A stretch of 35,036 nt of DNA from an uncultured Verrucomicrobiota bacterium (GTDB lineage Bacteria > Verrucomicrobiota > Verrucomicrobiia > Opitutales > Opitutaceae). The translations under genes and the position numbers were made by a program. Under the pieces are notes generated by a model. It made no database searches. It saw nothing but the letters and a program-made list of their open reading frames with translations, and was not told the DNA's origin. The DNA lies in contig CAJCBL010000144.1 of assembly GCA_903960515.1 (NCBI GenBank), positions 1-35,036 of the forward strand, in the 5' to 3' direction. Shown piece after piece: positions 704 to 16,720 of the stretch (positions are counted from its first letter, which is position 1; each line of letters begins with the position of its first letter).

Positions 704-1597
704 ATGCGCTCACTATTCTTTGCCTCCCTCCTCGCCCTGCCGCTGGCCACCCCGGGCCAGTCCGCACCGTCCACCATCGATACCACCGCCGCCTACGCCT
801 ACAGCGCCAACGCCGGCTGGATCAACCTGCGTGGCGATGGCACCAACGGCGTGCGCGTTGGCGAGACCTTCCTCTCCGGCAAGGCCTATGGCGCCAACTT
901 CGGTTGGATCGACTGCGGCTCCGGCAGCCCCGCCAACGGCTTCAGCTACGCCAACACCTCACGCGCCGACTTCGGTGTGAATCGCTCCGATACCGGGTTG
1001 CTCTCCGGCTACGCCTACGGCGCCAACGTCGGCTGGATCAACTTCGGCTGGTCCACCAACCCCATCGATCCCAATACGCCGGCCATCGACCCGATCACCG
1101 GGGATTTCTCCGGCTTCGCCTACGCCGCCAACCTCGGCTGGATCAACCTGGGCACCGGCTACCTCAAAACCAGCTCGGTTGACCGCACCGACTCCGACGG
1201 CGACGGCATTCCCGACGCCTGGGAGCGGCAGCACTTCGGCAACCTCACCAAGGCGGGCATCGCCACCGATGCCGACAGCGACGGCCAGAGCGATGCCGCA
1301 GAATATATCGCCGACACCGATCCCAGCAGCGCCGCCAGCTTCCTCAAGATCGTCTCCCATACCTATGCCGGTGGCATGACGACCGTCGCGATCAAGTTCA
1401 CATCCCAGCCCACGCGCCTCTACCGCATCCAGGAATCCACCAACCTGACCACCTGGACCACGATCGCCACCGCAGTGGGCGGCCAGTCGCTCAACCCCTT
1501 CGAGGCCGACGTCGGTACCGAGACCACCAAGACGGTGGCCTTCACCGGCAGCGCCCGGCACTTCTTCCGCGTGGTCGCCGTCCTGCCGTTACCGTAA
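704..1597 (+). CDS. Secreted GWIN-repeat protein with calcium-binding repeats (paralogue 1)
   Basis: The 297-residue product has a signal peptide (about 1-21). Four copies of an AY(G/S/A)AN-x-GWI(N/D) motif follow at about residues 32-41, 61-70, 104-113 and 139-148. Next come two Asp-rich thrombospondin-type-3/dockerin-like loops (DSDGDGIPDAWE at 163-174, DADSDGQSDAAEY at 189-201) that probably bind calcium. The C-terminal domain carries YRIQESTNLTTW and ends FFRVVAVLPLP. I associate this tail domain with secreted Verrucomicrobiota proteins. The function is unknown, and an extracellular location is inferred. I chose the ATG at 704 over an in-frame start at 518 because it directly precedes the signal peptide; the upstream frame lies in the repeated leader. 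The gene at 10677 is a full-length paralogue. The beta-helix gene cluster starts 179 bp downstream on the same strand. Confidence 0.85.
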   Translation: MRSLFFASLLALPLATPGQSAPSTIDTTAAYAYSANAGWINLRGDGTNGVRVGETFLSGKAYGANFGWIDCGSGSPANGFSYANTSRADFGVNRSDTGLLSGYAYGANVGWINFGWSTNPIDPNTPAIDPITGDFSGFAYAANLGWINLGTGYLKTSSVDRTDSDGDGIPDAWERQHFGNLTKAGIATDADSDGQSDAAEYIADTDPSSAASFLKIVSHTYAGGMTTVAIKFTSQPTRLYRIQESTNLTTWTTIATAVGGQSLNPFEADVGTETTKTVAFTGSARHFFRVVAVLPLP

Positions 1598-1624
1598 CGC
1601 GGGGGGGGCGAGCTAAGGGTTCTC

Positions 1625-1656
1625 CGTCGGATCTGTCGTATCCGGCTGATCCGACA
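1625..1656. repeat. Short TCGGAT-type spacer repeat with dyad symmetry
   Basis: GTCGGAT and ATCCGAC face each other across about 16 bases, with internal TCGTATCCGG echoes. The tract resembles the heptamer-like TCGGTCTGATCCGACCG tract at 18026-18058. There is no T run, so a terminator is not supported. It lies directly after the first GWIN-repeat gene. Confidence 0.4.
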
Positions 1657-1690
1657 ACCCACCGCGGAGCGTCCACAGCCGCTGCCAGCG

Positions 1691-1776
1691 GTATCCGATC
1701 TTCAACCTATACTTCCGACTTCAACTCGGCCGCCTCTGTCACTTCTGCAATCAGCATTCTTCGTTCTCACTTAGCC
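1691..1776 (+). promoter_or_regulatory. Duplicated leader (boxes A and B) of beta-helix gene 1
   Basis: Box A (GGTATCCG, then TTCAACCTATACTTCCGACT) spans about 1691-1727. Box B (TCAGCATTCTTCGTTCTCAC, then TTAGCC) runs up to the ATG. The same two boxes occur before other genes of the cluster, with 20 to 80 bp between box A and the start. No Shine-Dalgarno sequence is present. A shared regulatory role is possible but unproven. Confidence 0.45.
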
Positions 1777-3402
1777 ATGCGCTCGTTCTATTTCGCCGCC
1801 GCCCTGCTCTCCGTTCCCGCCTTCGCCCTCGCTCAGGGCGCGCTCACCCCGCCCGGCGCCCCCGCGCCGACGATGAAGACGCTCACCCAGATCGAGCCGC
1901 GCACACCGCTACAAGCCGGCGCTACCGGCGTTACCGCCAACACCAACGGCGGCTTCACCATCTCGGCTCCAGGTTCCTACTACCTCTCCGGGAACCTCAC
2001 AGTCGCCTCTGGCGATGGCATCAAGATCGACACCAACAACGTCACCCTCGACCTCAACGGCTTCACCCTCTCCTCCACCTCCAATCCCGCCTCCGACATC
2101 GCTATCTTCATTCCCTCCATATGGGCGAACATCATTATTCGCAACGGCCACATTAGAGGTACTGGAACGATAGATAACACAACCGGCGAGTTCTCCGGTG
2201 CGGGTTTCGGTTACGGGATCGTCGGCCTCGGTGTCCATAATGTCCTAATCTCCGACATCACCATTAGAGACGTGGTGCTGCACGCGATCTACTTGGTCTC
2301 CGGCTCCACTGTAGAACGCTGCGCGGTCACCTGCTGCGGCTACAGCGGTATCCGCGCTGATGTGGTTACCAACTCCTCGGCGATCTTCTGCGCAAATACC
2401 GCCATAGAAGGCACCACCGTCAGCAACAGCCAGGGCTCCAGTGTGAACGGTGCTGGAGTCAGCGCTACAACCGCTTCGGCATCCATCGGCACCAGCAATT
2501 CCGGTATCGGGCTAATAGTCACCCAGAGCGCCGCAAATTGCTCCGGCACTACGCAAAGCGGCCCCTACGGCCTGCGCGTTGCCAGCAATGACGCCACACC
2601 AGTCCTTGGCTCGGCCGAAAACTGCAACGGCACCGTAGCCAGCGGCACCGGCATCGGCCTCTCTGCCGGCACCGCCACCAACTGCCACGGCACCAGCGCC
2701 TCCGGCTCCGGCATCGACGCCAAGAGTGTCGCCAACTCCTACGGCAAAAGCGCCGCCGGCCACGGGATCAGCGCCACCACCGTCACCGGCAGCACCGGCG
2801 AATCCACCGACAAGGACGGCGTCCACTGCACGGTTGCCTCCGATTCCTTCGGATACAGCTACAACATGACAGGGCTCTCCGCGGCCACCGCCACCAATTG
2901 CTACGGTGCCAGCCATGTAGGATACGGGCTCTACGCCCAGGAAGCCACCAACTGCCACGGCAAGTCCGATACCGGTACCCGTGGCCTCCACGCCGACAAC
3001 ACAGCCACGGGTTGCACCGGCGAGATCACCACTGCGTCCGGAGGTGGCTCAAGCTGCGGGCTGTGGACAATCATCGCCACCAACTGCCGCGGGCTCCTGT
3101 TTAGTAGTACCGGCAGTATCCAGGGCTACTATGGCCTGTCGGCCGACATCGCCCAGAACTGCACCGGGACGTCGTTTGGGGGCAACGGACTCCGGGCCAC
3201 CACGAGCGCACTCAACTGCTCCGGAGCCACCGGACGGACGGACGGTATCGGGTTGAATGCCTCCGGAGGCACCGCCAACTCCTGCCGCGGCGACGGCCTA
3301 GGCACCGGAACCGCCCTCAAAGCCGAAATCGCCATCGGCTGCACCAGCAGTCACGGAGTGATCGATGTTCCCGCCGGGGGGAAGTTCCTGGGCACCCCCT
3401 GA
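1777..3402 (+). CDS. Secreted beta-helix repeat protein 1
   Basis: The product has 541 residues. The signal peptide covers 1-19, with cleavage likely after FALA. The family's constant module follows (about 20-100): LTPPGAPAPTMKTLTQIE, PGSYYLSGNLTVASG and VTLDLNGFTLSS. The middle part has NIIIRNGHIRGTG, typical of parallel beta-helix proteins. From about residue 180 there are rungs of the A-T-N-C-x-G-x-S type, many 18 residues long and most with an Asn-Cys pair. The protein ends KFLGTP, a tail shared with paralogues 2, 3 and 5. It is presumably exported through Sec and stays on the cell surface or is released. No enzyme motif is visible, so I assign no activity. A structural or adhesive role is the simplest guess. 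This is the longest of the nine paralogues. Confidence 0.85.
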   Translation: MRSFYFAAALLSVPAFALAQGALTPPGAPAPTMKTLTQIEPRTPLQAGATGVTANTNGGFTISAPGSYYLSGNLTVASGDGIKIDTNNVTLDLNGFTLSSTSNPASDIAIFIPSIWANIIIRNGHIRGTGTIDNTTGEFSGAGFGYGIVGLGVHNVLISDITIRDVVLHAIYLVSGSTVERCAVTCCGYSGIRADVVTNSSAIFCANTAIEGTTVSNSQGSSVNGAGVSATTASASIGTSNSGIGLIVTQSAANCSGTTQSGPYGLRVASNDATPVLGSAENCNGTVASGTGIGLSAGTATNCHGTSASGSGIDAKSVANSYGKSAAGHGISATTVTGSTGESTDKDGVHCTVASDSFGYSYNMTGLSAATATNCYGASHVGYGLYAQEATNCHGKSDTGTRGLHADNTATGCTGEITTASGGGSSCGLWTIIATNCRGLLFSSTGSIQGYYGLSADIAQNCTGTSFGGNGLRATTSALNCSGATGRTDGIGLNASGGTANSCRGDGLGTGTALKAEIAIGCTSSHGVIDVPAGGKFLGTP

Positions 3403-3407
3403 CCGGA

Positions 3408-3440
3408 TTGCGGAGTGCGGCATTCGGATTGCGGATTCGG
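3408..3440. repeat. Heptamer spacer repeat (TGCGGAT type)
   Basis: A period-7 tract reads TGCGGAG, TGCGGCA, TTCGGAT, TGCGGAT, TCGG. It begins 6 bp after the stop of beta-helix gene 1. Near-copies follow beta-helix genes 3 and 5 and argB, and inverted copies precede argD. Confidence 0.7.
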
Positions 3441-3490
3441 CACTCAGCCCCCGGCGCCGCCTACACCCTTCGTCTGCGGCCCTGGCCCCG

Positions 3491-3604
3491 GCATCCGCTC
3501 CTCAACCTAAACTTTCCACTTCAACTAGGCCTCCTCCGCCATCGCCGCACCGCACCCGTCCTTCCTCCACTTCTACAGTCAGTATCCTTCGTTCTCCCTT
3601 AGCC
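3491..3604 (+). promoter_or_regulatory. Duplicated leader of beta-helix gene 2
   Basis: Box A (GCATCCGCTC, then CTCAACCTAAACTTTCCACT) is at 3491-3527. Box B (CAGTATCCTTCGTTCTCCCT, then TAGCC) is at about 3578-3604 and touches the ATG. No ribosome binding site is seen. Confidence 0.45.
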
Positions 3605-4744
3605 ATGCGCCTCATCCTCCTTTCTCTGCTCGCCATACCCACCCTCGGCTTCGCCCAAGGCCAGCTCACCCCGCCCGGCGCCCCAGCGCCGACGATGAAG
3701 ACACTCGACCAGCTCGAGCCCCGCCGCGTAATCGGCACACCCGGCGCCACCCGCACCACTGGCTACACCATCTCGACCTCCGGCTCCTACGTGCTCGCCG
3801 GCCCGATCGCCGTCGACTCCGGCAACGCCCTCACGATCTCCGCCAGCAACGTCACCCTCGACCTCAACGGCTTCGAACTCTCCTCCTCCGCAGATCCGAA
3901 GGCCGGCACCGCCATCTCCATCGCCGCCGGCCGCTCCAGCATCGCCATCACCAACGGCTTCATCACCAACTTCGCCGGCGGCATCGTCAGCGACGGAACC
4001 ACCAGCCACTCGATACAAGTTGCCGACGTCACGGTCACCTCCGCCGGCGTCGACGGCATCGTACTGGCGCGCCGCGACAGCACCTACAACCTGCCTGCAC
4101 TCGACACCAGCATCGACCGCTGCAGCGCCTATTCCACCACGGGCCACGGCCTGAGCGGCATCGGCCTGAGCGCCAACCGCGTAGCCCTCAGCTACGCAGA
4201 CTCGGATGGCCCTCGCGCGATCCAGGCCGGCACCGTCACCGCCTCCCGCGCCTCCGGCGCCACCGGCTACACGATCGATGCCCACGTCGCGGACTCCTGT
4301 CACGCCACGTCCAACAGCGCCATCGCCCTCGGAGCCGCCAACGGCTGCACCGCCACCAACTGCCACACGTTTTCCTATTTCGACTATGGCCTCGATGCCC
4401 TCAACGCCACCGGCTGCTACGCCGGCAGCCAGACCAGTTACGGTGCGCGCGTCTTCTTCACCGCCACCGGCTGTTACGCCGCGGTTGAGAGCGAGACCGA
4501 GGGCGGCGCCTTCGCCCTTTCCGCCACCGAGGCGATCGCTTGCGTGGCCGACCACAAGGGCACCTACGGCACGCGCTGGGGCCTGTACAGCAGTGGCACC
4601 ACCAGCTTCTGCTACGCCCACGTAGACGGCGTCGGGATCACGGGCGGCGTCACCCTCACGGCCGCCATCGCCATCGGCTGTGTCATCGACGGAGTGAGCA
4701 CCACCAACGTGCCCGCCGGAAAGAAATTTCTCGGCACCCCTTGA
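3605..4744 (+). CDS. Secreted beta-helix repeat protein 2
   Basis: The product has 379 residues, with a signal peptide at 1-17 (cleavage after LGFA). The constant module follows (LTPPGAPAPTMKTLDQLE, SGSYVLAGPIAVDSG, VTLDLNGFELSS). Its repeats are more degenerate than in the other paralogues: rungs such as ATGCYAGSQTSYGARV keep the Cys but often replace the Asn with Gly. The tail is GKKFLGTP. The start at 3605 is chosen because it begins the signal peptide and sits directly after TTAGCC, as in paralogues 1, 5 and 7. The frame is open further upstream, but that part reads through the heptamer repeat and leader. The stop lies only 42 bp before beta-helix gene 3, so the two may share a transcript. 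Function is unknown. Confidence 0.83.
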   Translation: MRLILLSLLAIPTLGFAQGQLTPPGAPAPTMKTLDQLEPRRVIGTPGATRTTGYTISTSGSYVLAGPIAVDSGNALTISASNVTLDLNGFELSSSADPKAGTAISIAAGRSSIAITNGFITNFAGGIVSDGTTSHSIQVADVTVTSAGVDGIVLARRDSTYNLPALDTSIDRCSAYSTTGHGLSGIGLSANRVALSYADSDGPRAIQAGTVTASRASGATGYTIDAHVADSCHATSNSAIALGAANGCTATNCHTFSYFDYGLDALNATGCYAGSQTSYGARVFFTATGCYAAVESETEGGAFALSATEAIACVADHKGTYGTRWGLYSSGTTSFCYAHVDGVGITGGVTLTAAIAIGCVIDGVSTTNVPAGKKFLGTP

Positions 4745-4786
4745 GCGTCACCTCCGGCCCACCACCACGTTCTTCGTTTTCCGTCC

Positions 4787-5896
4787 ATGAAGCACCTTTC
4801 TATTCTCGCCCTCCTTCTCCCCTCGCTGGCCTTCGCCCAAGGCGCCCTCACCCCGGCATCCGCTCCGGCTGCCTCGATGAAGCGGCTCGACCAGATCGAG
4901 GCCCGCTGCCCCGTCCAAGCCGGCGCGCCCGGAGTCACGGGCAGCCCCACCACCGGGTTCACCATCTCCGCGGCCGGCTCGTACTACCTCACCGGCGACA
5001 TCGCCGTCGCCTCCGGCAACGCCATCACCATCACCGCATCTCCGGTAACTCTCGACCTCAACGGTTTCACCCTATCCTCCACCGCCAACCCCGCCGCCGG
5101 CTACGCCATCAAGGGCGGTCTCGCCCGCATCTCCAATGGCCGGATCCAATGCGCCGGCACGGCGTCGGCCACCGGCTTCTCCGGCCCCGGCTTCACCTCC
5201 GGCATCTCGCTCACCTCCGGCTCGGTCACCCGGGTTTCCGTGGCGGGTATTTCCGGCACCGGCATCAGCGGCGCCGGGCTCGTCACCCACAGCTCCGTGC
5301 GCCAAAGCGGCATCGGCATCAACGCCGGCATTGTGGCCGATTGCACCGCATCGGCCTGCCGCACCACTGGCATCGCCAGCACCATCGCCGTGCGCAGCAC
5401 CGCCGATACCTTCGGCCAAGGCATTAACGCCGCCGTCGTCGCCGATACCACCGCGACCAGCTCCGCCGGCGACGCGATCGTCGGCACCGTCGTACGCTCC
5501 AGCATCGGCCTCTCGGACACCGGCTACGGCATCGATGCCAAGGTCGTGCACGACAGCACCGGTCGCAGCCGCGTCGACTCCGCCGGCACCGGCCCCACCG
5601 GTCTGCGCACGTACATTGCCTACAACTGCCACGGCACCACCGCCTCTTCCAACGCCTACGGGATCCAGGCCACCTACGTCGCATTCAACTGCACCACCGG
5701 CAACACCGCTGGCGGCCTAGGCCTATGGGTCGAGAAAGGCCCTGCCGTCTTCAGCAAGGCCTTCATCTCGAACGCCGGCGGCAACGATGTTGCCATCTCC
5801 GCCCCGCTCGCCATCGGCTGCACCGTGAGCGGCCTGCCCGCCGGCATGAGCGGTGTGGGCACGCCCGCCGATATGAAATTCCTGGGCACGCCCTGA
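4787..5896 (+). CDS. Secreted beta-helix repeat protein 3
   Basis: The 369-residue product is the shortest paralogue. The signal peptide is at 1-17 (LAFA). The constant module has drifted: LTPASAPAASMKRLDQIE, with RCPVQAG in place of the usual RTPLQAG, then GSYYLTGDIAVASG and VTLDLNGFTLSS. The middle carries short Gly/Ser/Thr/Ala rungs (GISGTGISGAGLVTHSS and similar) with fewer Asn-Cys pairs than its relatives. The tail is ADMKFLGTP. It follows gene 2 by 42 bp without the usual leader boxes, suggesting cotranscription with gene 2. No catalytic motif is visible. Confidence 0.82.
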   Translation: MKHLSILALLLPSLAFAQGALTPASAPAASMKRLDQIEARCPVQAGAPGVTGSPTTGFTISAAGSYYLTGDIAVASGNAITITASPVTLDLNGFTLSSTANPAAGYAIKGGLARISNGRIQCAGTASATGFSGPGFTSGISLTSGSVTRVSVAGISGTGISGAGLVTHSSVRQSGIGINAGIVADCTASACRTTGIASTIAVRSTADTFGQGINAAVVADTTATSSAGDAIVGTVVRSSIGLSDTGYGIDAKVVHDSTGRSRVDSAGTGPTGLRTYIAYNCHGTTASSNAYGIQATYVAFNCTTGNTAGGLGLWVEKGPAVFSKAFISNAGGNDVAISAPLAIGCTVSGLPAGMSGVGTPADMKFLGTP

Positions 5897-5901
5897 ATCA
5901 A

Positions 5902-5932
5902 TTGCGGAGTGCGGAATTCGGAGCGCGGATTC
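5902..5932. repeat. Heptamer spacer repeat (TGCGGAT type)
   Basis: TTGCGGAGTGCGGAATTCGG followed by AGCGCGGATTC begins 6 bp after the stop of beta-helix gene 3. It closely matches the tracts at 3408 and 8906. Copies in the same position after three paralogues suggest that gene and spacer were duplicated together. Confidence 0.7.
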
Positions 5933-6033
5933 ACCACTTGGGGCGCGGCCGCCGTTCACAATCCACCGATCTATCGCTCGTGTTCCTGCTACTTGGTCAC
6001 CGGCAGCGTCCCACCTCCGCACCGCCCTCCGCG

Positions 6034-6080: not shown

Positions 6081-7289
6081 ATGCGCCCGACCTTTCTCGC
6101 AGTCGTCTTGTTTCTTCCCTCCCTCGGCTTTGCCCAGGGTGCGCTCACCCCTCTTGGCGCTCCCGCGCCGACGATGAAGTCCCTCGACCAGATCGAGGCG
6201 CGAACCCCTCTCCAGGCCGGCGCGCCAGGGGTCAGCCCTGACCAAAACGGCGGCTTCATCATCGAGAGGAGCGGCTCGTACTACCTCACCGGCCCGCTGG
6301 AGGTCGGCTCCGGCAACGCCATCTCCATCTACGCACCCAACGTCACCCTCGACCTCAACGGTTTCACGCTCTCCTCCACTGCCGACGACGCCGTCGTGCG
6401 CGGCACCGCCATCTACGCGCCCAACAGCGCCGACCACCTCATCATCCGCAACGGCCACATCAGCGGCGAGATCATCAGCCAAAACAACGGCACGTTCACC
6501 GGCCGAGGGTTCGAAAACGGCATCGACGCCCCCTCCGTCTCGGCCGTGAACCAAGCGGCGGCAAACACTCTGGTCGAACACGTCACAGTGGAAGGTGTGA
6601 TGAAAAACGGGATTTCCCTCGAGCGCCCCACAAGCAGCATCCGCGCCTGCTCGGTGTACCAGTGCGGCCAGTTCGGCCTGAGCGCCACGGACATAGCAGA
6701 TTCCAACGCCGCCATGTGCGGCAGCATCGCGCTCATCGCCAAGGGCACCGCCAGCAACTGCTCCGCCAGCGGCCAGCGCGGCGGGATTTCGGCTGTCACC
6801 GCGATCAACTGCCACGGTCGCAGCGGCACCGATACTGGGCTCGCGGCCACAGTCGCCACCAACTGCACCGGCGAAAGCTACTCCGGGGTGGGCTTGCAGG
6901 CCAGGGAATGCGCCACCGGTTGCTCCGGCACCACCACCACCGGCAGCTACGGTATCCGCGTGGCTACACTGGACAGCACTCCTGTCGCTGGCACCGCTGA
7001 GAACTGCCGCGGCAGCGCCACCGGCGGCGGCACGGGGCTCTCGGCCGAAACGGCATCCAACTGTTTTGGACAGAGCAATTCCGGCATCGGCCTCTCCGCG
7101 GGCACCGCCAGCAACAGCTTCGCATCCACCGCCTCCGGCACGATCGCGATGGAGATCACCGGTGCCGCCACCAACTGCCGGGGCAACTGCCCTGCCTTTC
7201 GTGGTTCGGCGATCAGGGCGTCCATCGCCGTGAGCTGCACCGCAGCGGCCGGCAGCATCATTGCCACCAATAAATACAACATGCCGTAA
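6081..7289 (+). CDS. Secreted beta-helix repeat protein 4
   Basis: The product has 402 residues. The signal peptide is at 1-18 (LGFA). The constant module contains LTPLGAPAPTMKSLDQIE, GSYYLTGPLEVGSG and VTLDLNGFTLSS. HLIIRNGHISGE follows, then about ten rungs of the A-x-N-C-x-G type such as ATNCTGESYSGVGLQA. One rung (ATGCSGTTTTGSYGIRVA) is close to a rung in paralogue 5 and to one in paralogue 1, which suggests segmental exchange. The protein ends NKYNMP, the alternative tail shared with paralogues 7 and 9. Export by signal peptide is clear; the molecular role is unknown. Confidence 0.84.
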   Translation: MRPTFLAVVLFLPSLGFAQGALTPLGAPAPTMKSLDQIEARTPLQAGAPGVSPDQNGGFIIERSGSYYLTGPLEVGSGNAISIYAPNVTLDLNGFTLSSTADDAVVRGTAIYAPNSADHLIIRNGHISGEIISQNNGTFTGRGFENGIDAPSVSAVNQAAANTLVEHVTVEGVMKNGISLERPTSSIRACSVYQCGQFGLSATDIADSNAAMCGSIALIAKGTASNCSASGQRGGISAVTAINCHGRSGTDTGLAATVATNCTGESYSGVGLQARECATGCSGTTTTGSYGIRVATLDSTPVAGTAENCRGSATGGGTGLSAETASNCFGQSNSGIGLSAGTASNSFASTASGTIAMEITGAATNCRGNCPAFRGSAIRASIAVSCTAAAGSIIATNKYNMP

Positions 7290-7478
7290 ACGGGCAGCAA
7301 AGAGCGGGAACTTGATCGTGGGGTTCACCGCCACAATCCCCGCATGCACCGGGCGTCCGCGAATGGTCGCGGATTCGGCATCCGGTGTTCCGTGTTCGAG
7401 TTCCTGTTTAGTCGCCGCTGTATTCAGCCGGTTTCAGCCATTCATCCCTGCCGTCGCGCCACGGTCCACGGGCCTCCG

Positions 7479-7592
7479 GTATCCGCGCCTCAACCTAAGC
7501 TTTCTATTTCAACTGGGCCTGCTCCGCCATCGCGGCTTCGCGCCCGTCCTTCTGCCACTTCTGCATTCAGCATTCTTCATTCTCACTTAGCC
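7479..7592 (+). promoter_or_regulatory. Duplicated leader (boxes A and B) of beta-helix gene 5
   Basis: Box A (GGTATCCGCG, then CCTCAACCTAAGCTTTCTAT) is at about 7479-7517. Box B (CTGCATTCAGCATTCTTCAT, then TCTCACTTAGCC) is at 7561-7592 and abuts the ATG. It is among the best-preserved examples of the leader. Confidence 0.5.
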
Positions 7593-8900
7593 ATGCGCCT
7601 TCCCCTCATCGTCCTGCTCGCCCTTCCCACCCTCGGCTTCGCCCAGGGCACGCTCACCCCGCCCAGCGGGGCCTTCGTTGGAGGCGCCCCGGCGCCAACG
7701 ATGAAGTCCCTCGACCAGATCGAGGCGCGCACGCCGCTCGGTGCCGTCGGCGGCAGCTTCGCCGCGATCTCCATCGACTCGCCGGGATCCTATGTGCTGC
7801 TCGGCAATCTCAGCGTGCGCGCCGGCGACGGCATCACGATCAACTCCGACAACGTCACCCTAGACCTCAACGGCTTCACCATCTCCTCAAGCGCCAATCC
7901 CGCTTCTGGTATAGCCATTAGTATTAGCGGCGCCTACTCCGCCATCTCTATTCGCAACGGTCATATTCGCGGCACCACCAACTACACCGACTATCCCACT
8001 CCGACCTTCACCGGCGGGGGGTTCAATTCCGGCATTGTTTCCGGGTTCGCCTACAGCCGAGGCCAGGGCGCGACCGGGATTGCAGTAGTGGGTGTTGCCG
8101 CGACCGGGATCCGACTCAGTTCGGAGGGATCAACCATCACGGACTGCACCGTTACCATTTGTGGCGGTTCAGGACTCTCCTCCACGACGGTGCATAACTC
8201 CTCCGCGATTACCTGCGGGGCCTATGCCATCAGCGCTCATGCGGTCGCCAATTGTTACGCCACCTGCGTCGCCCCCTCGAGCGGTTACTCCGGCATCTAT
8301 GCGCAGACCGTCACCAATTCTTTCGGCACCAGCACCTCCGGCAATGGTATCTACGCAGAGACCGCCACTAACTGCTACGGGACCAGTACCTCCGGCACCG
8401 GCCTGTCGGTTGACGTTGCCACCAATTGCAGTGGCCAAAGCACCACCGGCACGGGACTTCTAGCGCGTGTGGCCACCGGTTCCGCAGGCAACAGCACTTC
8501 CGGAAGCGGCCTGCAGGTTTCGGAATGCGCCATCGGCTGCTCCGGTACCACCTCCACCGGTGCCTACGGCGTCTGGGTCGGGTCGCCCGTCGACACCGGC
8601 ACCGCCGATAATTGCCGTGGTACTGCCACCGGGCCGGGGCGAGGACTCTCGGCCGAGAATGCCACCAACTGCTTCGGCAGAAGCAGCTCCGGGTTGGGCG
8701 TCTACGCCATCACCGCCAGCAATTGCTCCGCATATACAGGCTCTGGCGACCTCGCCATGGATGTCGTGGGTGCCGCCACCAACTGCCGCGCAGTCTGCAG
8801 CAAAGCCGGAGGCAAGGCCATCCGTGCCGCTGTGGCGGTGAGCTGCACCACCGGAGGCGGCACCATCGACGCCCCCCAGAAGTTCCTGGGCACGCCCTGA
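7593..8900 (+). CDS. Secreted beta-helix repeat protein 5
   Basis: The product has 435 residues. The signal peptide is at 1-17 (LGFA). The constant module carries a seven-residue insertion (LTPPSGAFVGGAPAPTMKSL), then GSYVLLGNLSVRAG and VTLDLNGFTISS. This protein shows the 18-residue period most clearly: VTNSFGTSTSGNGIYAET, ATNCYGTSTSGTGLSVDV, ATNCSGQSTTGTGLLARV and ATGSAGNSTSGSGLQVSE follow in direct succession. The DNA repeats with a 54-bp period. The tail is PQKFLGTP. The frame is open upstream to 7344, but that part is leader sequence, and the ATG at 7593 begins the signal peptide. No active-site motif is present. Confidence 0.84.
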   Translation: MRLPLIVLLALPTLGFAQGTLTPPSGAFVGGAPAPTMKSLDQIEARTPLGAVGGSFAAISIDSPGSYVLLGNLSVRAGDGITINSDNVTLDLNGFTISSSANPASGIAISISGAYSAISIRNGHIRGTTNYTDYPTPTFTGGGFNSGIVSGFAYSRGQGATGIAVVGVAATGIRLSSEGSTITDCTVTICGGSGLSSTTVHNSSAITCGAYAISAHAVANCYATCVAPSSGYSGIYAQTVTNSFGTSTSGNGIYAETATNCYGTSTSGTGLSVDVATNCSGQSTTGTGLLARVATGSAGNSTSGSGLQVSECAIGCSGTTSTGAYGVWVGSPVDTGTADNCRGTATGPGRGLSAENATNCFGRSSSGLGVYAITASNCSAYTGSGDLAMDVVGAATNCRAVCSKAGGKAIRAAVAVSCTTGGGTIDAPQKFLGTP

Positions 8901-8905
8901 CCCAA

Positions 8906-8936
8906 TTGCGGAGTGCGGGATTCGGACTGCGGATTC
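8906..8936. repeat. Heptamer spacer repeat (TGCGGAT type)
   Basis: TTGCGGAGTGCGGGATTCGG followed by ACTGCGGATTC begins 6 bp after the stop of beta-helix gene 5. It is nearly identical to the tracts after genes 1 and 3. Confidence 0.7.
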
Positions 8937-8983
8937 AGTGCGCCGTACGCTGCACCGTCTCCGACCTTCGCCCGAGGGCCCTC

Positions 8984-9053: not shown

Positions 9054-10640
9054 ATGAAACCTCTCCTCCTGGCCCTGCTCTCCCTTCCCGCCCTCGGCTT
9101 CGCCCAGGGCGCCCTCACCCCTCCCGGCGCCCCCGCGCCGACGATGAAAACGCTCACCCAGATCGAGCCCCGCACCCCGCTCCAAGCCGGCGCTCCCGGC
9201 GTCACCGCCAACGCCAACGGCGGCTTCACCATCAGCACTTCCGGCTCCTACTACCTCGCCGCCAACCTCACGGTCGCCTCCGGCAGCGGCATCGTCATCT
9301 CCGCCAGCGATGTCACCCTCGACCTCAACGGCTTCACCATCGCCTCCATCGCAAGTGCGGCCAGCGGCAGCGGCATCGAGTGCAACGGCAGCGCCACCAA
9401 CATCGCGATCCGCAACGGCAGCATCCGCTCCTCAACCACGTTCAACGGCACCTACTCCCCGGGCGGCTTCATCAACGGCGTATACAACAACACCGCGGCC
9501 CCCAACAATTCGGTCGCCGACCTCAGCGTGCTCGGAGTGTCCCAGTCTGGGATCATCCTCCCCGGGCCTGCTTCCAGCGTACGCAACTGCCGGGTATGCG
9601 TGTGCGGTGCAGTTGGGATCAGCGCCTCCATCGTCAGCGATTGCGTGGCTTTGGTCTGCGGCAACAACGGTATCACCGCCACCTCCGCCAGCAATTGCTC
9701 CGCAGAAAGCAAAGGCGCCGGGAGCGGCATCGCTGCCGCCACTGTTACGAACTGCTCCGGCATCTCGGTCAGCGGCTTTGGCATCAGCGCCACCTCCGCC
9801 ACCAACTCCACCGGGCAATCGACCTCCACCTCCCCCGGCCTCAACGCCGACACCGCCAGCAATTGCCGCGGCAACAGCACCTCAGCGACAGGGCTTTCCG
9901 CCAGCAATGCGATCAACTGCACCGGCACAAGCACGGAGGCTATCGGCCTGCGCGCCTACTGTTCCGCCCTCAACTCGATCGGGAGCAGCACAAACGGGAT
10001 AGGCCTCCAGGCTGTAACCGCCGAGAACTGCCGTGGTTCCAGTACCACATCCACCGGACTTTACGCGGAGCGCTTGGCCACAGGCTGCATGGGGTCGACC
10101 ACTTCTGGTACCTACGGCTTGAGCGCCGTAATCGCCTCCAACTGCGAGGCGACCAACTCGGCAGGCCGTGCCAATGCCTACGGCTTGTTTGCCAGTCGCT
10201 CGGCGGTCAACTCCTCCGGCTACACCAAAACCGGCAGTGCGGGCGTCTTTGTAGGTGAGCACGCCACTGGCTGCACCGGCTCCACCGAGATGGGAACCTA
10301 CGGGCTGCAATCACAGGGCACCGCGAGCAATTGCACAGGGTCCGTCACCAGCGGTGCCAATACCATCGCAGAGTCCGCCGGCCTCTCGGCGAGCATCGTC
10401 AGCGACTGCTCCGGTTCCAACAACAGCCTCGTCGCCGGCACCTACGGCATCCGGGGCACGGTTACGGTCAACAATTCCTCCGGGAGCGGAATCATCGGCA
10501 TCCGCGCGACCAACGCCGCCAACTTCAGCCACGGCCGCTCCTGGGCCTCGGTGAGCCCCGTCGCCATCCAGGCACCCGTCGCCATCGGCTGCACCTCCAG
10601 TGCCGGCGCCATCTCCGGCACCCACTATATCACGCCCTGA
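9054..10640 (+). CDS. Secreted beta-helix repeat protein 6
   Basis: The product has 528 residues. The signal peptide is at 1-17 (LGFA). The constant module contains LTPPGAPAPTMKTLTQIE, GSYYLAANLTVASG and VTLDLNGFTIAS. NIAIRNGSIRSS and a GGFINGVY segment follow. The repeat region has more than a dozen Asn-Cys or related rungs (for example AINCTGTSTEAIGLRAYC). The tail, HYITP, is a divergent form of the family ending. The start at 9054 fits the signal peptide; the frame continues upstream to 8913 but reads through the heptamer repeat and leader there. The second GWIN-repeat gene begins 36 bp after its stop, the only place in the cluster where the two families are this close, so the pair may be cotranscribed. 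Confidence 0.84.
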   Translation: MKPLLLALLSLPALGFAQGALTPPGAPAPTMKTLTQIEPRTPLQAGAPGVTANANGGFTISTSGSYYLAANLTVASGSGIVISASDVTLDLNGFTIASIASAASGSGIECNGSATNIAIRNGSIRSSTTFNGTYSPGGFINGVYNNTAAPNNSVADLSVLGVSQSGIILPGPASSVRNCRVCVCGAVGISASIVSDCVALVCGNNGITATSASNCSAESKGAGSGIAAATVTNCSGISVSGFGISATSATNSTGQSTSTSPGLNADTASNCRGNSTSATGLSASNAINCTGTSTEAIGLRAYCSALNSIGSSTNGIGLQAVTAENCRGSSTTSTGLYAERLATGCMGSTTSGTYGLSAVIASNCEATNSAGRANAYGLFASRSAVNSSGYTKTGSAGVFVGEHATGCTGSTEMGTYGLQSQGTASNCTGSVTSGANTIAESAGLSASIVSDCSGSNNSLVAGTYGIRGTVTVNNSSGSGIIGIRATNAANFSHGRSWASVSPVAIQAPVAIGCTSSAGAISGTHYITP

Positions 10641-10676
10641 GCCGCCGCTGGCCGTCGCCCACGATCCCCTATCTGT

Positions 10677-11528
10677 ATGAAAGCCATCCTCACCAGCGTA
10701 GTGGCGCTGCTCGCGCTGCCCGGCGCCGCGCTCGCCCAGCCCACCTTCGCCTACTCCGCCAACGCCGGCTGGATCAACGTGGCCCCGCTGCCCGACACCT
10801 ATATCGACGTTGGTGAGACCTTCCTCTCCGGCTATGTGTACGGGGCCAACATCGGCTGGATCAGCATGGGCGACGGCACGCCCACCAACGGCTACTCCTA
10901 CGCCAACACCTCCGGCGACACCGGAGTGAACAACGACGGCACCGGCAACCTCTCCGGCTTCGCCTACTCCGCCAACACCGGCTGGATCGACTTCGGTTGG
11001 GCCGGCCTGGCCGACCCCAACCGCCCCCGCTTCGATCTCGCCGACGGCCAATTCCACGGCTTCGCCTACTCGGCCAACTGCGGCTGGGTGAATCTGGGGA
11101 GCGGCTATCTCACCGTCCTCAATATCAACCGCCCCGATACCGATGCCGACGGCATCGACGACACCTGGGAGCGCAAGTGGTTTGGCAACCTCACCACCGC
11201 CGGTCTGGGTACCGACCGCGACGGCGACGGCGCGAGCGATGCCGCCGAGGCCATCGCCGACACCGACCCGCTCGATCGCTCCGATTACCTCAAGATCACC
11301 TCCCAGGCCTACACCAACGGGCAGACCACAGTTTCCCTGGTGTTCACCTCGCAGCCCTCGCGCCGCTACCGTATCCAGCATTCTACCGACCTGGTGAACT
11401 GGAGCGACTCCCCGCTGGCCACCTTCGCCCCCGACGCCGGCCCCACCACCGCTCGCGGCTTTACCTTCGCCGGCAACGCCCGCCACTTCTTCCGAGTGGT
11501 CGCCGTGCTCCCACTACCCGAGCCCTGA
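10677..11528 (+). CDS. Secreted GWIN-repeat protein with calcium-binding repeats (paralogue 2)
   Basis: The 283-residue product has a signal peptide at 1-20 (GAALA). Four AY-S/G-AN-x-GW-I/V motifs lie at about residues 25-33, 54-62, 97-105 and 130-138. Next come the Asp-rich loops DTDADGIDDTWE (154-165) and DRDGDGASDAAE (180-191), and a C-terminal domain with YRIQHSTDLVNW that ends FFRVVAVLPLPEP. It aligns with the product at 704 along its whole length, including the spacing of the motifs, so the two arose by duplication. The fourth motif (YSANCGWVN) carries a Cys, whereas in paralogue 1 the Cys follows the second motif. Function is unknown; an extracellular calcium-stabilised protein is inferred. 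Confidence 0.85.
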   Translation: MKAILTSVVALLALPGAALAQPTFAYSANAGWINVAPLPDTYIDVGETFLSGYVYGANIGWISMGDGTPTNGYSYANTSGDTGVNNDGTGNLSGFAYSANTGWIDFGWAGLADPNRPRFDLADGQFHGFAYSANCGWVNLGSGYLTVLNINRPDTDADGIDDTWERKWFGNLTTAGLGTDRDGDGASDAAEAIADTDPLDRSDYLKITSQAYTNGQTTVSLVFTSQPSRRYRIQHSTDLVNWSDSPLATFAPDAGPTTARGFTFAGNARHFFRVVAVLPLPEP

Positions 11529-11621
11529 ACGGTGCCGGCCCGCGGCGGGCCTAAGGGAAATCGCGATATGCCGGAAGCAGATGGCCAGCCCTTCTGCTTC
11601 CGTAGCCCGCCACTTCTCACG

Positions 11622-11749
11622 CTCGCTTCAACTTTGGGTCTGCCGTCCGCCCCTTCTCCGCTCCCAGCTCTTCCTTTTGCCTTGGGTTTTTCGTCCGCGT
11701 CTCCGCCTCCGTCATTTCTGCATTCTTCACCCTGCCTTCAACCTTAGCC
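11622..11749 (+). promoter_or_regulatory. Duplicated leader (mainly box B) of beta-helix gene 7
   Basis: A weak box A remnant (CTCGCTTCAACTTTGGG) lies near 11623-11640. A good box B (TTTCTGCATTCTTCACCCTG, then CCTTCAACCTTAGCC) spans 11715-11749 up to the ATG. The segment between is pyrimidine-rich. Confidence 0.4.
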
Positions 11750-13321
11750 ATGCGCCTCACCCTCATCGCCCTTCTCGCGCTGCCCACCCTCGCCTTCGCC
11801 CAAGGTTCGCTCACTCCTCCCGGCGCCCCCGCCGAGACGATGAAAACCCTCGACCAGCTCGAGCCGCGCACGCCGTTGCAGAAGGGCGCCGCCGGGGTGT
11901 CTCTGGAAGATAATGGCGGGTACACCATCTTCCGCCCCGGCTCCTACTACCTCACGGCCAGTTTCAGCGTCGGCTCCGGTACCGGCATCACCATCGCGAG
12001 CAACGACGTGACCCTCGACCTCAATGGCTTCACCATCGCCTCCACCGCCTCCCCGGCGAGCGGCACTGGCATCATCATCAGCGACCTGCGATCCAACATC
12101 ACCATCCGCAACGGCCATATCCGAGGCGCCACCACCTACGCCGCCCAAGTCTTCACCCGTGGAGGTTTCCAATCCGGCCTCACCAGCGGTTCGCCCAACA
12201 CGACCACCCAAGCGACCCGCCTCACCGTCACCGGGGTGGCGCAATCCGGAATCTCCGGCATCGGCAGCGTCGACCAATGTGCTGTGGACATCTGCGGGCA
12301 GTTCGGAATCGCCGGCGTCATCATCGTCGACTCCCTCGCCAACAACTGCGGTGCCACCGCCATCTCCGGGTCCACGGTCTCCAATTGCTTCGGCGACGCC
12401 TCCGCCGGCAGCGGGATGGGCATCACAGCCTGGGTGATCTCCAATAGTTACGGTGTTAGCACGTCCGATACCGGTCTCATGGCCTCCTATACGGCCACCA
12501 ACTGTTACGGCTTCTCCACCTCCGGCAAAGGGCTGTCCGCCTTTAGCGCGGCCAATTGCCGCGGCCAAAGCGGCACCGCCTTCGGTCTCGATGCCTACAC
12601 TGCCGAAAACTGCTACGGCTACAGCGCCACCACCAACGGCCTCTACGCCGAAGCCAGCGCCACCAACTGCTACGGGGTCAGCAATTCCGGCACAGGACTG
12701 TGGGCGTCCAGCGCACAAGGCTGCCGCGGCATCAGCACCAGCGGCTGGGGACTGGCGGTGGACAGAACTGCCGAGAACTGCTTCGGCCAGACCACGACCG
12801 GCAGCCACGGGCTGTACGCTGGAGATACGGCCACCAACTGCTCGGGCAACAACACCACGGGAGCCCCCGGAGCCTCCGGGTTATCCAGCGGAGGCACGGC
12901 CACCGGCTGCAAAGGATTCACCCAAGCCGGCTCCGCTGGACTGCGTGCGACGGTGGCTGAAAACTGCCAAGGCACCACCACTACCGGCACCTACGGGCTC
13001 AACGCCACCGATTCGGCCACCAACTGTTCCGGCACCACCGCGAACACCGACATCAACTCCATCACCTATGGCCTCAAGACGGACACCGCCCTCAACTGCA
13101 AAGGGAGTGCCGAGATTGGTACAGGGCTCTTCGCCATTAACGCCACCAACTGCAGCGGCACCAGCACCTCTGGTTCTTACGGGCTGCGTGCGAGCGGCAC
13201 CGCCACTTCGTGCCGCGGCACCAACAGCGCCGGGGGCGTCGCGCTCTCCGCCCCCATCGCCATCGGCTGCACTGCCGGCACCGGCACCATCTCCGCAACC
13301 AACCGCTACAACATGCCGTGA
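11750..13321 (+). CDS. Secreted beta-helix repeat protein 7
   Basis: The product has 523 residues. The signal peptide is at 1-17 (LAFA). The constant module is a distinct subtype shared with paralogue 8: LTPPGAPAETMKTLDQLE with QKGAAGV, then PGSYYLTASFSVGSG and VTLDLNGFTIAS. NITIRNGHIRGATTY and GGFQSGL follow. About sixteen rungs follow, most with an N-C-x-G core (ATNCYGFSTSGKGLSAFS, AENCYGYSATTNGLYAEA). The spacing is near 18 residues, with occasional longer loops. The tail is NRYNMP. The rungs are regular enough that DNA-level repeats of about 54 bp run through the gene, a plausible substrate for unequal recombination. No enzymatic motif is seen. Confidence 0.85.
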   Translation: MRLTLIALLALPTLAFAQGSLTPPGAPAETMKTLDQLEPRTPLQKGAAGVSLEDNGGYTIFRPGSYYLTASFSVGSGTGITIASNDVTLDLNGFTIASTASPASGTGIIISDLRSNITIRNGHIRGATTYAAQVFTRGGFQSGLTSGSPNTTTQATRLTVTGVAQSGISGIGSVDQCAVDICGQFGIAGVIIVDSLANNCGATAISGSTVSNCFGDASAGSGMGITAWVISNSYGVSTSDTGLMASYTATNCYGFSTSGKGLSAFSAANCRGQSGTAFGLDAYTAENCYGYSATTNGLYAEASATNCYGVSNSGTGLWASSAQGCRGISTSGWGLAVDRTAENCFGQTTTGSHGLYAGDTATNCSGNNTTGAPGASGLSSGGTATGCKGFTQAGSAGLRATVAENCQGTTTTGTYGLNATDSATNCSGTTANTDINSITYGLKTDTALNCKGSAEIGTGLFAINATNCSGTSTSGSYGLRASGTATSCRGTNSAGGVALSAPIAIGCTAGTGTISATNRYNMP

Positions 13322-13453
13322 ACGAGTAGTGAGCATCGCGTAGCGGGTAGTTCGATCCCCGCCCAAATCCTGGGCTTTCCCCGGAGCCCCCGGGGCGCAG
13401 ATTCCAAGTCGGGTGCCAGAGGATACGAGCGCCGAGCCCGTGCAGGAGTATTC

Positions 13454-13584
13454 AGCCGTTCCTTCCCCGTTCTGCCCTCTGCATTCCCACTTCCACCTTA
13501 GGTCCTCCGCGCTCGCCTCCGCCCTCCGATTCCGCTCTGCAAGCTAAACTTCCCACTTCAACGCCGCCATTTTCGGCCCTCGCC
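13454..13584 (+). promoter_or_regulatory. Duplicated leader of beta-helix gene 8, boxes in reversed order
   Basis: A box B-like segment (CTCTGCATTCCCACTTCCAC, then CTTAGG) lies at about 13479-13502. A box A-like segment (GCAAGCTAAACTTCCCACTT, then CAACGCC) lies at 13538-13564. The order is the reverse of that before genes 1, 2 and 5. No ribosome binding site precedes the ATG at 13585. Confidence 0.35.
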
Positions 13585-15078
13585 ATGCGCTCACGCATTC
13601 TCGCCGTCGCCCTCCTCGCACTCCCCGCCCTCGCTTTTGCGCAAGGCTCGCTCACCCCGCCCGGCGGCCCCGCGGAGACGATGAAGACCCTCGACCAGCT
13701 CGAGGCCCGCACCCCGGTCCAAAAGGGTTCCCCCGGTGTCAACACCCAGGCCAACGGTGGTTTCACCCTCGATCGCCCGGGCTCCTACTATCTGACCACC
13801 GGCTTCAGCGTCACCTCCGGCAATGCCCTCACCATCGCCGCCAGCGACATCACCCTCGACTTGGGCGGCTTCACCCTCTCCTCCACCGCCTCGCCCGCGG
13901 AAGGCAGCGCCATCCTCATCCAAGCTTCGCTCTCCAACGTGCGCATCCACCACGGCCAGATCCGCAGTACAACTACCTACACGGCCCCCAGCTTCACTCT
14001 GGGCGGCTTCTATGGCGGCATCTTCGCCCAAGACTTCACCGATACCTGTCGGATCGACAATATCGCCATCCGCGGCGTCGCCCTCAGCGGTATCTATTTG
14101 CCCGGCGAAAACAGCGCGGTGCGCGACTGCTCGGTCGTCACCTGCGGTTCCTCCGGGATCGTCGCCGCCAACATCCACTCCTCCACCGCCCAGATTTGCG
14201 GTGCCACCGCGATCAGGGGCATGACTGTCGCCGATTGCGTGGGAGCGACCGTCGCCGACACCGGCGAGGGCATCTCCGCGGTCACCGCAAGCAATTGCCG
14301 CGGCACCGGCAAAGGCAGCCACGGAGTCTACACCACCTCCGCAGCGCTCAACTGCGCCGGCCGCTCCACTGACGGCATCGGGCTCTATTCACTCGGCTCC
14401 GCCACCAACTGCACCGGAGCCAGCATCAGCGGCACCGGCCTGCACGCGCTGCTCGCCCAGAGTTGCACTGGCACCAGCAGCAGCGCCGCCGGGGTCCTCG
14501 CCATCCAAACCGCCGAGAACTGCTACGGCGAGACCGCCACCGGTCCCTACGGCTTGGCTTGCGGCCGCGCCGCCACCAACTGTTTCGGCAACACCACCAC
14601 CGGCACCGCGACCGCCTTCGGACTCTACGCCGACATCGCAACCGGCTGCTTCGGGTTCAGCACCACCGGCTCCGCCGGCCTCTTCGCCAAGAACGCGACC
14701 AACTGTATCGGAACTACTGCCACTGGCACCTACGGTCTCCACGCGCTCAAGCTCGCCACCAACTGCACCGGCACCATCACATCGACCGCCGGAGGCACCG
14801 CCGGCCTGCGCACCGGGATCGCCTCCCATTGCACTGGCGAGAACCTCAGCACCACCGCGAACACCTACGGGCTCTACGCCACCCAGAGCGCCCACTACTC
14901 GAACGGCGGCGGTGTGATCGGTATGTTTGCCAGCGTATCCGCCAGCTACTGCCACGGCACCGCCTCGACAATCGGCGGCGTCGCAATTCAGGTCGGCGCC
15001 GTCGGCAGCGGTATCGCCGTCTGCTGCACCTCCGGTGCCGGCACCATCACCGCCGTTAGCAAATACCTAATGCCCTAA
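13585..15078 (+). CDS. Secreted beta-helix repeat protein 8
   Basis: The product has 497 residues. The signal peptide is at 1-19 (LAFA). The constant module (LTPPGGPAETMKTLDQLE, QKGSPGV, PGSYYLTTGFSVTSG) matches paralogue 7, but its last element is ITLDLGGFTLSS, with Gly replacing the usual Asn as in paralogue 9. Then come NVRIHHGQIRSTTTY and GGFYGGIF. About a dozen A-x-N-C-x-G rungs follow, such as ATNCTGASISGTGLHALL. The tail is SKYLMP, intermediate between the two tail types. Gene 9 starts 43 bp after its stop with no leader boxes between, suggesting an operon pair like genes 2 and 3. Confidence 0.84.
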   Translation: MRSRILAVALLALPALAFAQGSLTPPGGPAETMKTLDQLEARTPVQKGSPGVNTQANGGFTLDRPGSYYLTTGFSVTSGNALTIAASDITLDLGGFTLSSTASPAEGSAILIQASLSNVRIHHGQIRSTTTYTAPSFTLGGFYGGIFAQDFTDTCRIDNIAIRGVALSGIYLPGENSAVRDCSVVTCGSSGIVAANIHSSTAQICGATAIRGMTVADCVGATVADTGEGISAVTASNCRGTGKGSHGVYTTSAALNCAGRSTDGIGLYSLGSATNCTGASISGTGLHALLAQSCTGTSSSAAGVLAIQTAENCYGETATGPYGLACGRAATNCFGNTTTGTATAFGLYADIATGCFGFSTTGSAGLFAKNATNCIGTTATGTYGLHALKLATNCTGTITSTAGGTAGLRTGIASHCTGENLSTTANTYGLYATQSAHYSNGGGVIGMFASVSASYCHGTASTIGGVAIQVGAVGSGIAVCCTSGAGTITAVSKYLMP

Positions 15079-15121
15079 CCCACCCCTCCGCCGACCGTCC
15101 ACAGTTCACCGTCCACCGACC

Positions 15122-16720
15122 ATGCGCTCCCTCCTCCTCGCCCTCCTCGCGCTTCCCGCCCTCGCCCTCGCCCAGGGCTCGCTCACCCCGGCAGCCGCCC
15201 CGGCGCCGACGATGAAAACCCTCGCCCAGATCGAGCCCCGAATCCCGCTCGGCACCCCCGGCCAGACCACCACCACCCCGCTGGTCATCTCCAGCTCCGG
15301 CTCCTACATTCTCACCGGTAGGATCACCATCACCGCCGGCGACGCCATCACCATCAATGCCAGCGATGTCACCCTCGACCTCGGCGGCTTCACCCTCTCC
15401 TCCTCCGAGACGATCCCGACGGGCAGCGGCATCGTTCTGGCTCCCTCCGTGCGCAACATCACCATCCGCAACGGCATCATCCGCGGCAACGTCGTGTTCG
15501 CCGTCGGCTCCTTCGCCGGCACCGGCTTTGCCAACGGTATCTACTCCGTCAGCACCGCCAACACCGTGGTGGAGGATGTCGCCGTCCGCGGGGTGGCCCA
15601 GCACGGCATCTTCTACGTGGGCATCATCCGCAACTGCTCGGCCAGCGTCTGCGGCGACCGCAGCCTCCAGGCCGAGAGCGTCACCAACTCCCGCGCCGAC
15701 ACCTGCGGTAACTACGGGATCCGCGGCGCCACCCTCGAGAACTGCTCAGCCACGATGACCACCGGCGGCACCGCCATCCTCGCCACCCACACCGCCACCG
15801 ATTGCTACGGCTCTACCACCGGAGGCACCGGGGTGAGCGCCCTCACCGCCACCAACTGCTCCGGGGTCAGCGCTACCGGCACCGGCATCGCCGCTACCAA
15901 CGTTGCCAACTGCCGCAGGGTCAGCAGCAGCGGCACCGGCATCAGCGCCATCACCGTATCCAACAGCTCGGGCCAGAGCACCTCCGACACCGGCCTTGAC
16001 GCCACCTCCGCCTCCAACTGCTCCGGCGACAGCACCTCCGGCATCGGCCTGCGCGCCCTCACCGCCAACGACTGCCACGCCACCACCGACACCGGTGCCT
16101 ACGGCCTATTTGCCATCCACACCGCCCAGAACAGCCGCGGCACCATCGCCACCGGCGGCGCCACCGCCTCCTACGCCCTCTACGCCAAGACTGCCCTCAA
16201 CTGCGTGGGCAATATCGATACCGTGGTGCCAACCCCGGCAACCTGCTACGGCCTCTACGCCTACGCCGCCGCCAACTGCTACGCCACCAGCCCCACCGGC
16301 TACGGTCTGCGCGCCGCCTTCACCGCCACCAACTGCTACGGGGCGAGCCCCTCCGGCGCCGGCCTCGATGCCTCCACGGCCGACGCCTGCTACGGCTCCA
16401 GCACCTCCGGCTACGGCCTGCGCGCCAACCTCGCCAGCAACAGTCACGGATACACCGTCTCCGGCACCGGCCTCGTCGGCGCCCTCGCCGCCACCAATTG
16501 CAGCGGCCAAAGCACCTCCGGCATCGGCCTCTCCGCCCGCAACGCGAGCAATTGCTTCGGCCAAAGCACCTCCGGCGACTACGGGCTCCTTGCCTACGGC
16601 ACCGCCAATGGCTGCACCGGCCAACGTGTCGGAGGTGTCGCCATCGCCGGGAACATCGCCATCGGCTGCACTTCCGGCGGCGGCACCATCGAGTCCCTCA
16701 ACCGCTACAACATGCCGTGA
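15122..16720 (+). CDS. Secreted beta-helix repeat protein 9
   Basis: The product has 532 residues. The signal peptide is at 1-18 (ALALA). The constant module contains LTPAAAPAPTMKTLAQIE, RIPLGTPGQ, GSYILTGRITITAG and VTLDLGGFTLSS. NITIRNGIIRGN follows. A long run of regular rungs comes next (ATNCSGVSATGTGIAATN, ASNCSGDSTSGIGLRALT, ASNCFGQSTSGDYGLLAY), followed by the IAIGCTSGGG segment common to nearly all paralogues, and the tail NRYNMP. It is the last gene of the array; the next gene encodes an unrelated secreted protein. Function is unknown, with the same inference of an extracellular fibre or adhesin. Confidence 0.85.
   Translation: MRSLLLALLALPALALAQGSLTPAAAPAPTMKTLAQIEPRIPLGTPGQTTTTPLVISSSGSYILTGRITITAGDAITINASDVTLDLGGFTLSSSETIPTGSGIVLAPSVRNITIRNGIIRGNVVFAVGSFAGTGFANGIYSVSTANTVVEDVAVRGVAQHGIFYVGIIRNCSASVCGDRSLQAESVTNSRADTCGNYGIRGATLENCSATMTTGGTAILATHTATDCYGSTTGGTGVSALTATNCSGVSATGTGIAATNVANCRRVSSSGTGISAITVSNSSGQSTSDTGLDATSASNCSGDSTSGIGLRALTANDCHATTDTGAYGLFAIHTAQNSRGTIATGGATASYALYAKTALNCVGNIDTVVPTPATCYGLYAYAAANCYATSPTGYGLRAAFTATNCYGASPSGAGLDASTADACYGSSTSGYGLRANLASNSHGYTVSGTGLVGALAATNCSGQSTSGIGLSARNASNCFGQSTSGDYGLLAYGTANGCTGQRVGGVAIAGNIAIGCTSGGGTIESLNRYNMP

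Follow-up and report, generated by a model that had tools for sequence, protein, structure and literature searches.

GWIN-repeat proteins and proteins that share an N-terminal tag of about 23 residues form, to judge from sequence comparison, a conserved pair of old origin that occurs in several phyla, and are not mere neighbours; the two families very probably work together. The window considered here, i.e. the whole stretch of 35,036 nucleotides that was analysed, is best read as holding two GWIN genes and nine tagged heads diversified by duplication and by changes in the number of coils. As a tentative model, the pair may be a secreted two-part system for protein display, with the GWIN proteins as holders and the tagged heads as exchangeable parts.

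The window lies on contig 144 of the host genome (G000; 5.5 Mb in 379 contigs; G with three digits denotes genomes and L with three digits fetched loci or stretches). Between positions 704 and 16720 lie eleven open frames, all on the plus strand and with no intervening gene, which encode the two GWIN and nine beta-helix proteins (table 1) and are separated by spacers of 36 to 303 nt. All eleven starts are signal-peptide-like according to a crude script (Arg/Lys beyond the initial Met, a stretch of 14-18 hydrophobic residues and no lipobox), and the frames together with these starts confirm what an earlier note, made from the letters alone, had described as an uninterrupted one-strand array of signal peptide-bearing proteins; its range of 369 to 541 residues for the beta-helix proteins also holds, given that an internal ATG is taken for three frames with long upstream extensions (3365, 7344 and 8913). 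The nine helix frames, when checked, contained no internal stop, and the two GWIN frames read through stop-free. Compared with H7, the remaining eight helix proteins show 40 to 52% identity, and that nine frames are still open at such divergence argues for use, not decay. The two GWIN proteins are 57-58% identical to each other. Gapped DNA identity per gene segment was discarded as a measure because it is too permissive (shuffled baseline about 0.7). The bodies of the helix proteins are built of repeat units of 54-57 nt; the coils are about 18 residues long, with an NCxG step that recurs, and each protein contains 7 to 19 cysteines. The gene order G1 H1-H6 G2 H7-H9 may represent two GWIN-first units; by spacing, G2 is nearer to H6 (36 nt 3' of it) than to H7 (221 nt 5' of H7). 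No further copies of either family were found elsewhere in the host genome at E 0.001.

Table 1. Array genes and related features, in window coordinates unless residues are stated.
Feature	Position	Strand	Description
G1	704..1597	+	GWIN protein, 297 aa: signal-peptide-like start; TSP3 repeat; FN3-like C-terminal domain
G1 four-repeat GWIN domain	about residues 28-155		
H1	1777..3402	+	tagged beta-helix protein, 541 aa; tag 1834-1902
H2	3605..4744	+	tagged beta-helix protein, 379 aa; tag 3656-3724
H3	4787..5896	+	tagged beta-helix protein, 369 aa; tag 4838-4906
H4	6081..7289	+	tagged beta-helix protein, 402 aa; tag 6135-6203
H5	7593..8900	+	tagged beta-helix protein, 435 aa; tag 7644-7730 (6-residue insertion)
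H6	9054..10640	+	tagged beta-helix protein, 528 aa; tag 9105-9173
G2	10677..11528	+	second GWIN protein, 283 aa; TSP3 above Pfam cut-off
H7	11750..13321	+	tagged beta-helix protein, 523 aa; tag 11801-11869
H8	13585..15078	+	tagged beta-helix protein, 497 aa; tag 13642-13710; predicted right-handed solenoid
H9	15122..16720	+	tagged beta-helix protein, 532 aa; tag 15173-15241
Duplicated leader	3488..3680	+	intergenic + H2 start; 83% identical, ungapped, to 7476-7668 before/in H5

Short GCGGATTC-rich repeats stand directly past the stops of H1, H3 and H5 (3381-3482, 5875-5976 and 8879-8980) and a GCATTCCGAAATCC repeat is found at 32056-32090; both are perhaps copies of a dispersed intergenic repeat. 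Directly after the array, at 16933-18021, a secreted-looking Pro/Gly-rich protein is encoded that has no Pfam match at E 0.1.

The earlier note had expected the array products to be repeat solenoids. Two products were modelled, H8 and G1, and H8, the one modelled among the nine helix proteins, is predicted to be a right-handed parallel beta-solenoid (44-row alignment, pLDDT 90.8, pTM 0.86). Its best match among solved folds is the A-module of the mannuronan epimerase AlgE4 (2pyg_B; Z 22.2, 3.2 A over 275 residues, 13% identity), a finding that could be taken to mean that the helix proteins are secreted polysaccharide lyases or epimerases. Such an enzymatic role is very improbable: other solenoids score within Z 1 of AlgE4, a common solenoid tells little about function, and the residues invariant among 44 helix relatives are those of the tag plus scattered Gly, Leu, Asp and Tyr, with no catalytic cluster evident, so that the conserved positions look, in the alignment, structural and not catalytic. 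Tailspikes are also among the fold matches, and a derivation of the array genes from phage tailspikes has been considered, which we regard as most improbable of all, since PHROGs profiles gave no match at E 0.01 for the four proteins scanned (G1, H7, H8 and H9), the array proteins have signal-peptide-like starts and all of the six neighbouring genes that were scanned are of ordinary bacterial kinds; the genes at 18113-29803 encode topoisomerase IV/gyrase A, a PEGA-TonB_C protein, a multi-PAS SpoIIE phosphatase, CinA, Polyketide_cyc2 and Exo_endo_phos proteins.

The Pfam beta-helix families PF13229 and PF05048 share the fold of the modelled head, and differ from the window proteins, which have coils of about 18 residues with NCxG and a conserved N-terminal tag. 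Eight window helix proteins (all but H2) gave no match to either family at E 1 with hmmscan; in a six-frame search H8 reached 25.3 bits against PF13229 (cut-off 25.9 bits), and 26.5 when joined with its neighbours, and of 44 family members 15 match PF13229 and 8 match PF05048. The judgement that the helix family is functionally undescribed agrees with a search of open-licence PMC papers, which gave no functional description. As to the origin of the array, the tree of helix proteins requires 3 label changes to account for those of the window, against 8.6 for shuffled labels (0 of 500 shuffles as low). The window helices were not found to form a single clade: eight fall in a twelve-row group with four foreign proteins, and H9 is unplaced. 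Runs of 4 to 8 matching frames occur in 8 of 76 loci elsewhere, and one long array (L046:3532-13694) holds seven tagged frames by pattern, or a run of eight by profile, followed by one GWIN gene. Thus, of the earlier idea of an expanding extracellular repertoire, the probably extracellular solenoids and the lineage-biased expansion stand, although it had missed both the pairing and the tag.

The tag (QGxLTPPGAPAPTMKTLDQIEPR) lies directly past the signal-peptide-like start, where the mature protein presumably begins. Among the nine window helices, which were chosen without regard to it, invariant positions amount to 14 of 24 at residues 17-40, 19 of 86 at residues 41-126 and 9 of 397 beyond. 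In the 44-row alignment conservation is 0.82 at positions 19-45, a value inflated because the rows were picked by tag pattern, against 0.42-0.56 elsewhere after the tag (gaps ignored). The N-terminus is, as had been noted, strongly conserved in these proteins; what had been taken for a constant module of the family narrows to the tag as its best-kept part, and this occurs on other folds as well. It is present on propeller-like proteins (L033, L034, L194, L196 and L218), 'propeller' being a reading of their repeats with only sub-cut-off Pfam matches such as BNR_4, and, in partly divergent form, on Lcl_C (PF07603) proteins at L200, L253, L259 and L260. The PF07603 matches of the tagged proteins have E values of 4e-26 (twice, in L253), 1e-26 (L260) and 2e-23 (L259), and all of these lie less than 1 kb from a GWIN frame; in the ten window proteins scanned (all but H2) PF07603 is absent. 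The host itself encodes, at 3017-3919 of its contig 135 (L028, L215), an Hcp-domain protein of the type VI secretion tube family (PF05638, E 2.4e-27) with the same tag and a signal-peptide-like start; all that it has in common with the window helices is the N-terminal tag. A signal-peptide-like start followed by the tag is an odd combination for an Hcp. On this distribution, the tag is more than a beta-helix cap.

The model of G1 (28 rows, pLDDT 89.6) consists of four Trp-bearing hairpins, which make up the GWIN part, followed by the TSP3 repeat and the FN3-like end, the latter resembling 3mpc_A (Z 7.3, 2.3 A over 76 residues). The TSP3 profile PF18884 (cut-off 25 bits) is passed by G2 with 28.3 bits, and G1 stays below it with 21.6. 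The GWIN profile found nothing convincing among PDB sequences (best E 0.87); Foldseek with the whole G1 model gave nothing for the GWIN part (best E 0.06 in PDB and 0.036 in BFVD), and the VIA rows for G1 cover mostly residues 202-297, i.e. the region beyond the GWIN domain, which is in neither case evidence for a new fold. Neither the GWIN domain nor the tag is named by the Pfam, NCBIfam and PHROGs scans that were made. The TSP3-FN3 half was considered as a system-specific element and rejected: the C-terminal half alone has 33 matches in the host besides G1 and G2, and the module recurs in many host proteins, inside or at the end (a first regular expression for its placement was poor). It is also found in open frames of 1510-1931 aa on host contigs 275, 99, 142 and 89 (L116, L119, L120 and L121). 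GWIN domains in turn occur within open frames of 1531-3079 aa at L082:11126-20362, which is NHL-like by eye, L083:10965-15743 and L219:6249-10841.

That GWIN and tag belong together emerges from an even sample of 387 Verrucomicrobiota genomes, in which GWIN is found in 41 and the tag in 38, with 33 having both, 8 GWIN only, 5 the tag only and 341 neither (Fisher p 6e-35). Moreover, in 4 of the 8 GWIN-only genomes (G436, G262, G253 and G246) GWIN has as its neighbour a helix or Lcl_C gene whose tag is divergent and, in G436, was recognised by eye only. The sample gave 51 GWIN hits, 42 of them in genomes that also have the tag. For 32 of the 51, a tag hit lies on the same contig, in every case within 5 kb and on the same strand, the tag being upstream in 18 and downstream in 14; about 0.3 such cases would be expected by chance (a rough estimate that assumes a 4.4 Mb genome).

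The same picture is given by 76 loci with the helix family, fetched partly via the tag pattern from 60 assemblies (counted by accession prefix); these lean to the kin of the window because they are the best matches to its family. With a GWIN profile built from three sequences outside these loci, 48 GWIN frames were found across 47 loci, every one on the strand of the nearest tag or helix frame, at less than 600 nt in 44 of 48 and with the partner upstream in 42 and downstream in 6. GWIN is present in 58 of the 60 assemblies with near relatives (43 in the fetched stretch and 15 elsewhere, 17 having been searched whole). No frame matching GWIN plus tag or helix was found in the 31 stretches scanned, and an apparent tag-helix-GWIN fusion (L043) proved spurious, two separate genes being joined across a stretch of unknown letters. 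One pair lies on L263, from Haloferula sp. BvORR071, whose record carries no MAG label. Pairs also occur outside Verrucomicrobiota according to database labels, namely in Planctomycetes (two, L102), Acidobacteria (L108) and Sumerlaeota (L255, in the genome of L097). Within the family, the presence of the pair is patchy: among 120 genomes, the clear tag holders and the clear GWIN holders are the same four (G000, G036, G042 and G109), with weak tag hits in G050 and G072, and both congeneric genomes of the sample (G010 and G056) gave no match to either the helix or the GWIN family.

The exceptions to the pairing count against docking of the tag on GWIN. Half of the tag hits (50 of 100) have no GWIN within 5 kb; GWIN was not found in G489 and G491, searched as whole assemblies, where tag or helix relatives are present; the tagged Hcp gene of the host is on a 4.4 kb contig without GWIN; in G042 the tag and GWIN hits are on separate contigs; and 17 of 96 GWIN frames have no tag or helix neighbour within 1.5 kb, some of these being at contig ends and part of the set having been fetched because the tag was missing. 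In G475, a tag gene adjoins GWIN on another contig (L255).

A tree of GWIN proteins indicates how the partners have changed. It was built from 48 of the 96 non-identical frames, the 17 partnerless ones being left out, and comprises all 10 rows labelled Lcl_C or propeller, plus helix-partnered rows of which 16 were chosen and 22 drawn at random, the labels coming from our own small profiles; that of L254 is doubtful because its tagged frames match the helix profile. G2 groups with the GWIN of G109 (support 99/81), G1 joins them (94/84) and, more weakly, so does G036 (89/66); in these two sister genera the partners are propeller-like, and in the window they are beta-helices. A supported branch (100/98) sets off the five GWINs whose partners are Lcl_C proteins, along with eight rows that have helix partners. 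The side on which the partner lies changes 9 times over the tree, at least 4 changes being forced, against a mean of 13 for shuffled labels (1 of 500 as low). These changes of side and the differing heads imply that the linkage outlives both gene order and head type.

In the proposed display system, GWIN would be the constant exported partner, with its TSP3 (calcium-type) repeat and FN3-like tail and, in some relatives, a very long stalk. The heads would be interchangeable, each exported by its signal peptide and each presenting the same tag as mature N-terminus; the tag would dock each head, either on the GWIN domain itself or on something set up by GWIN, and the head (beta-helix, propeller-like or Lcl_C domain) would face outward and bind glycans or surfaces. 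The genes, the one solenoid model, the conservation of the tag, its linkage with GWIN and the differing heads beside GWINs of one lineage are what the analysis shows; the scheme further supposes passage through the outer membrane, direct tag-GWIN binding, outward orientation and glycan binding. In the H8 model, residues 21-40 have pLDDT values of 61-73, against mostly 95 and above in the coils, as a binding peptide might look in a prediction, although low values do not prove that a stretch is flexible, and those of a loop at 421-440 are even lower.

A somewhat unlikely alternative is that GWIN and the tagged heads, expressed together as components of a matrix or sheath, bind the same extracellular polysaccharide, with no docking and with the tag serving, e.g., to start oligomerisation. 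Linkage and co-occurrence need no contact, coiled-coil-like stretches follow the tag in the five loci with propeller-like proteins (by eye), and the Trp-, Tyr- and Asn-rich GWIN repeats recall some glycan-binding modules, which are rich in the same residues; against this, the H8 model has no more than a 4-residue helix after the tag, although the tag is the best-conserved part of the nine helix proteins. Less probable again, and in our view doubtful, is that the tag acts, once Sec export is complete, as a signal for secretion or sorting, with GWIN as its dedicated chaperone or outer-membrane acceptor. The place of the tag directly past the signal peptide, on unrelated folds, would suit such a signal, as would the GspD-like secretins of the host (best 325 bits, under the 351 cut-off), but the TSP3 and FN3-like end of G1, the Calx-beta and SdrD_B domains of the long GWIN protein of L219 and the tag hits in genomes without a GWIN hit speak against it.

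Returning to docking, a more general form of the model, held still more tentatively than the display system itself, is that the tag on unrelated exported folds is a client motif of GWIN, by which bacteria of the PVC group and neighbouring groups mount interchangeable heads on one scaffold. If so, the window would be one of the larger local head repertoires of that docking system. The partnership across phyla and the tag common to unrelated folds make this look like an undescribed way of assembly outside the cell; as far as tested, the parts are familiar folds and it is their pairing with a common N-terminal tag that is undescribed, open-licence PMC papers having yielded nothing on the GWIN-tag pair, nor on searching with motif strings. 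Little has been described of the machinery that Verrucomicrobiota and their neighbours have outside the cell, and the tag offers a handle for listing exported surface proteins across phyla. The tag also gives anonymous beta-helix proteins a context and names their partner; if docking is real, it would be a new protein-display pair.

Among known systems, cohesin-dockerin assemblies combine a constant receptor module with interchangeable clients that carry a common short module, and the proposed GWIN-tag docking would work alike; it differs in that Pfam scans gave no cohesin or dockerin match and in that the tag is N-terminal and about 23 residues long. The ChW repeats of clostridia (PF07538), which occur in secreted proteins, are likewise Trp-rich, and their profile touches 1 of 35 GWIN domains (best E 0.0082) and not that of G1. 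Closest to one kind of head, and a described precedent for the model, is the Legionella protein Lcl: its N-terminal region keeps it on the cell surface, and its exposed DUF1566/PF07603 domain binds glycosaminoglycans (PMC11162425). Lcl has a collagen-like stalk, and the passages on it mention no GWIN partner (PMC11162425), whereas the window heads are beta-helices; the likeness is that Lcl, too, is exported and N-terminally held (PMC11162425), and that its PF07603 domain is, elsewhere, a tagged head near GWIN.
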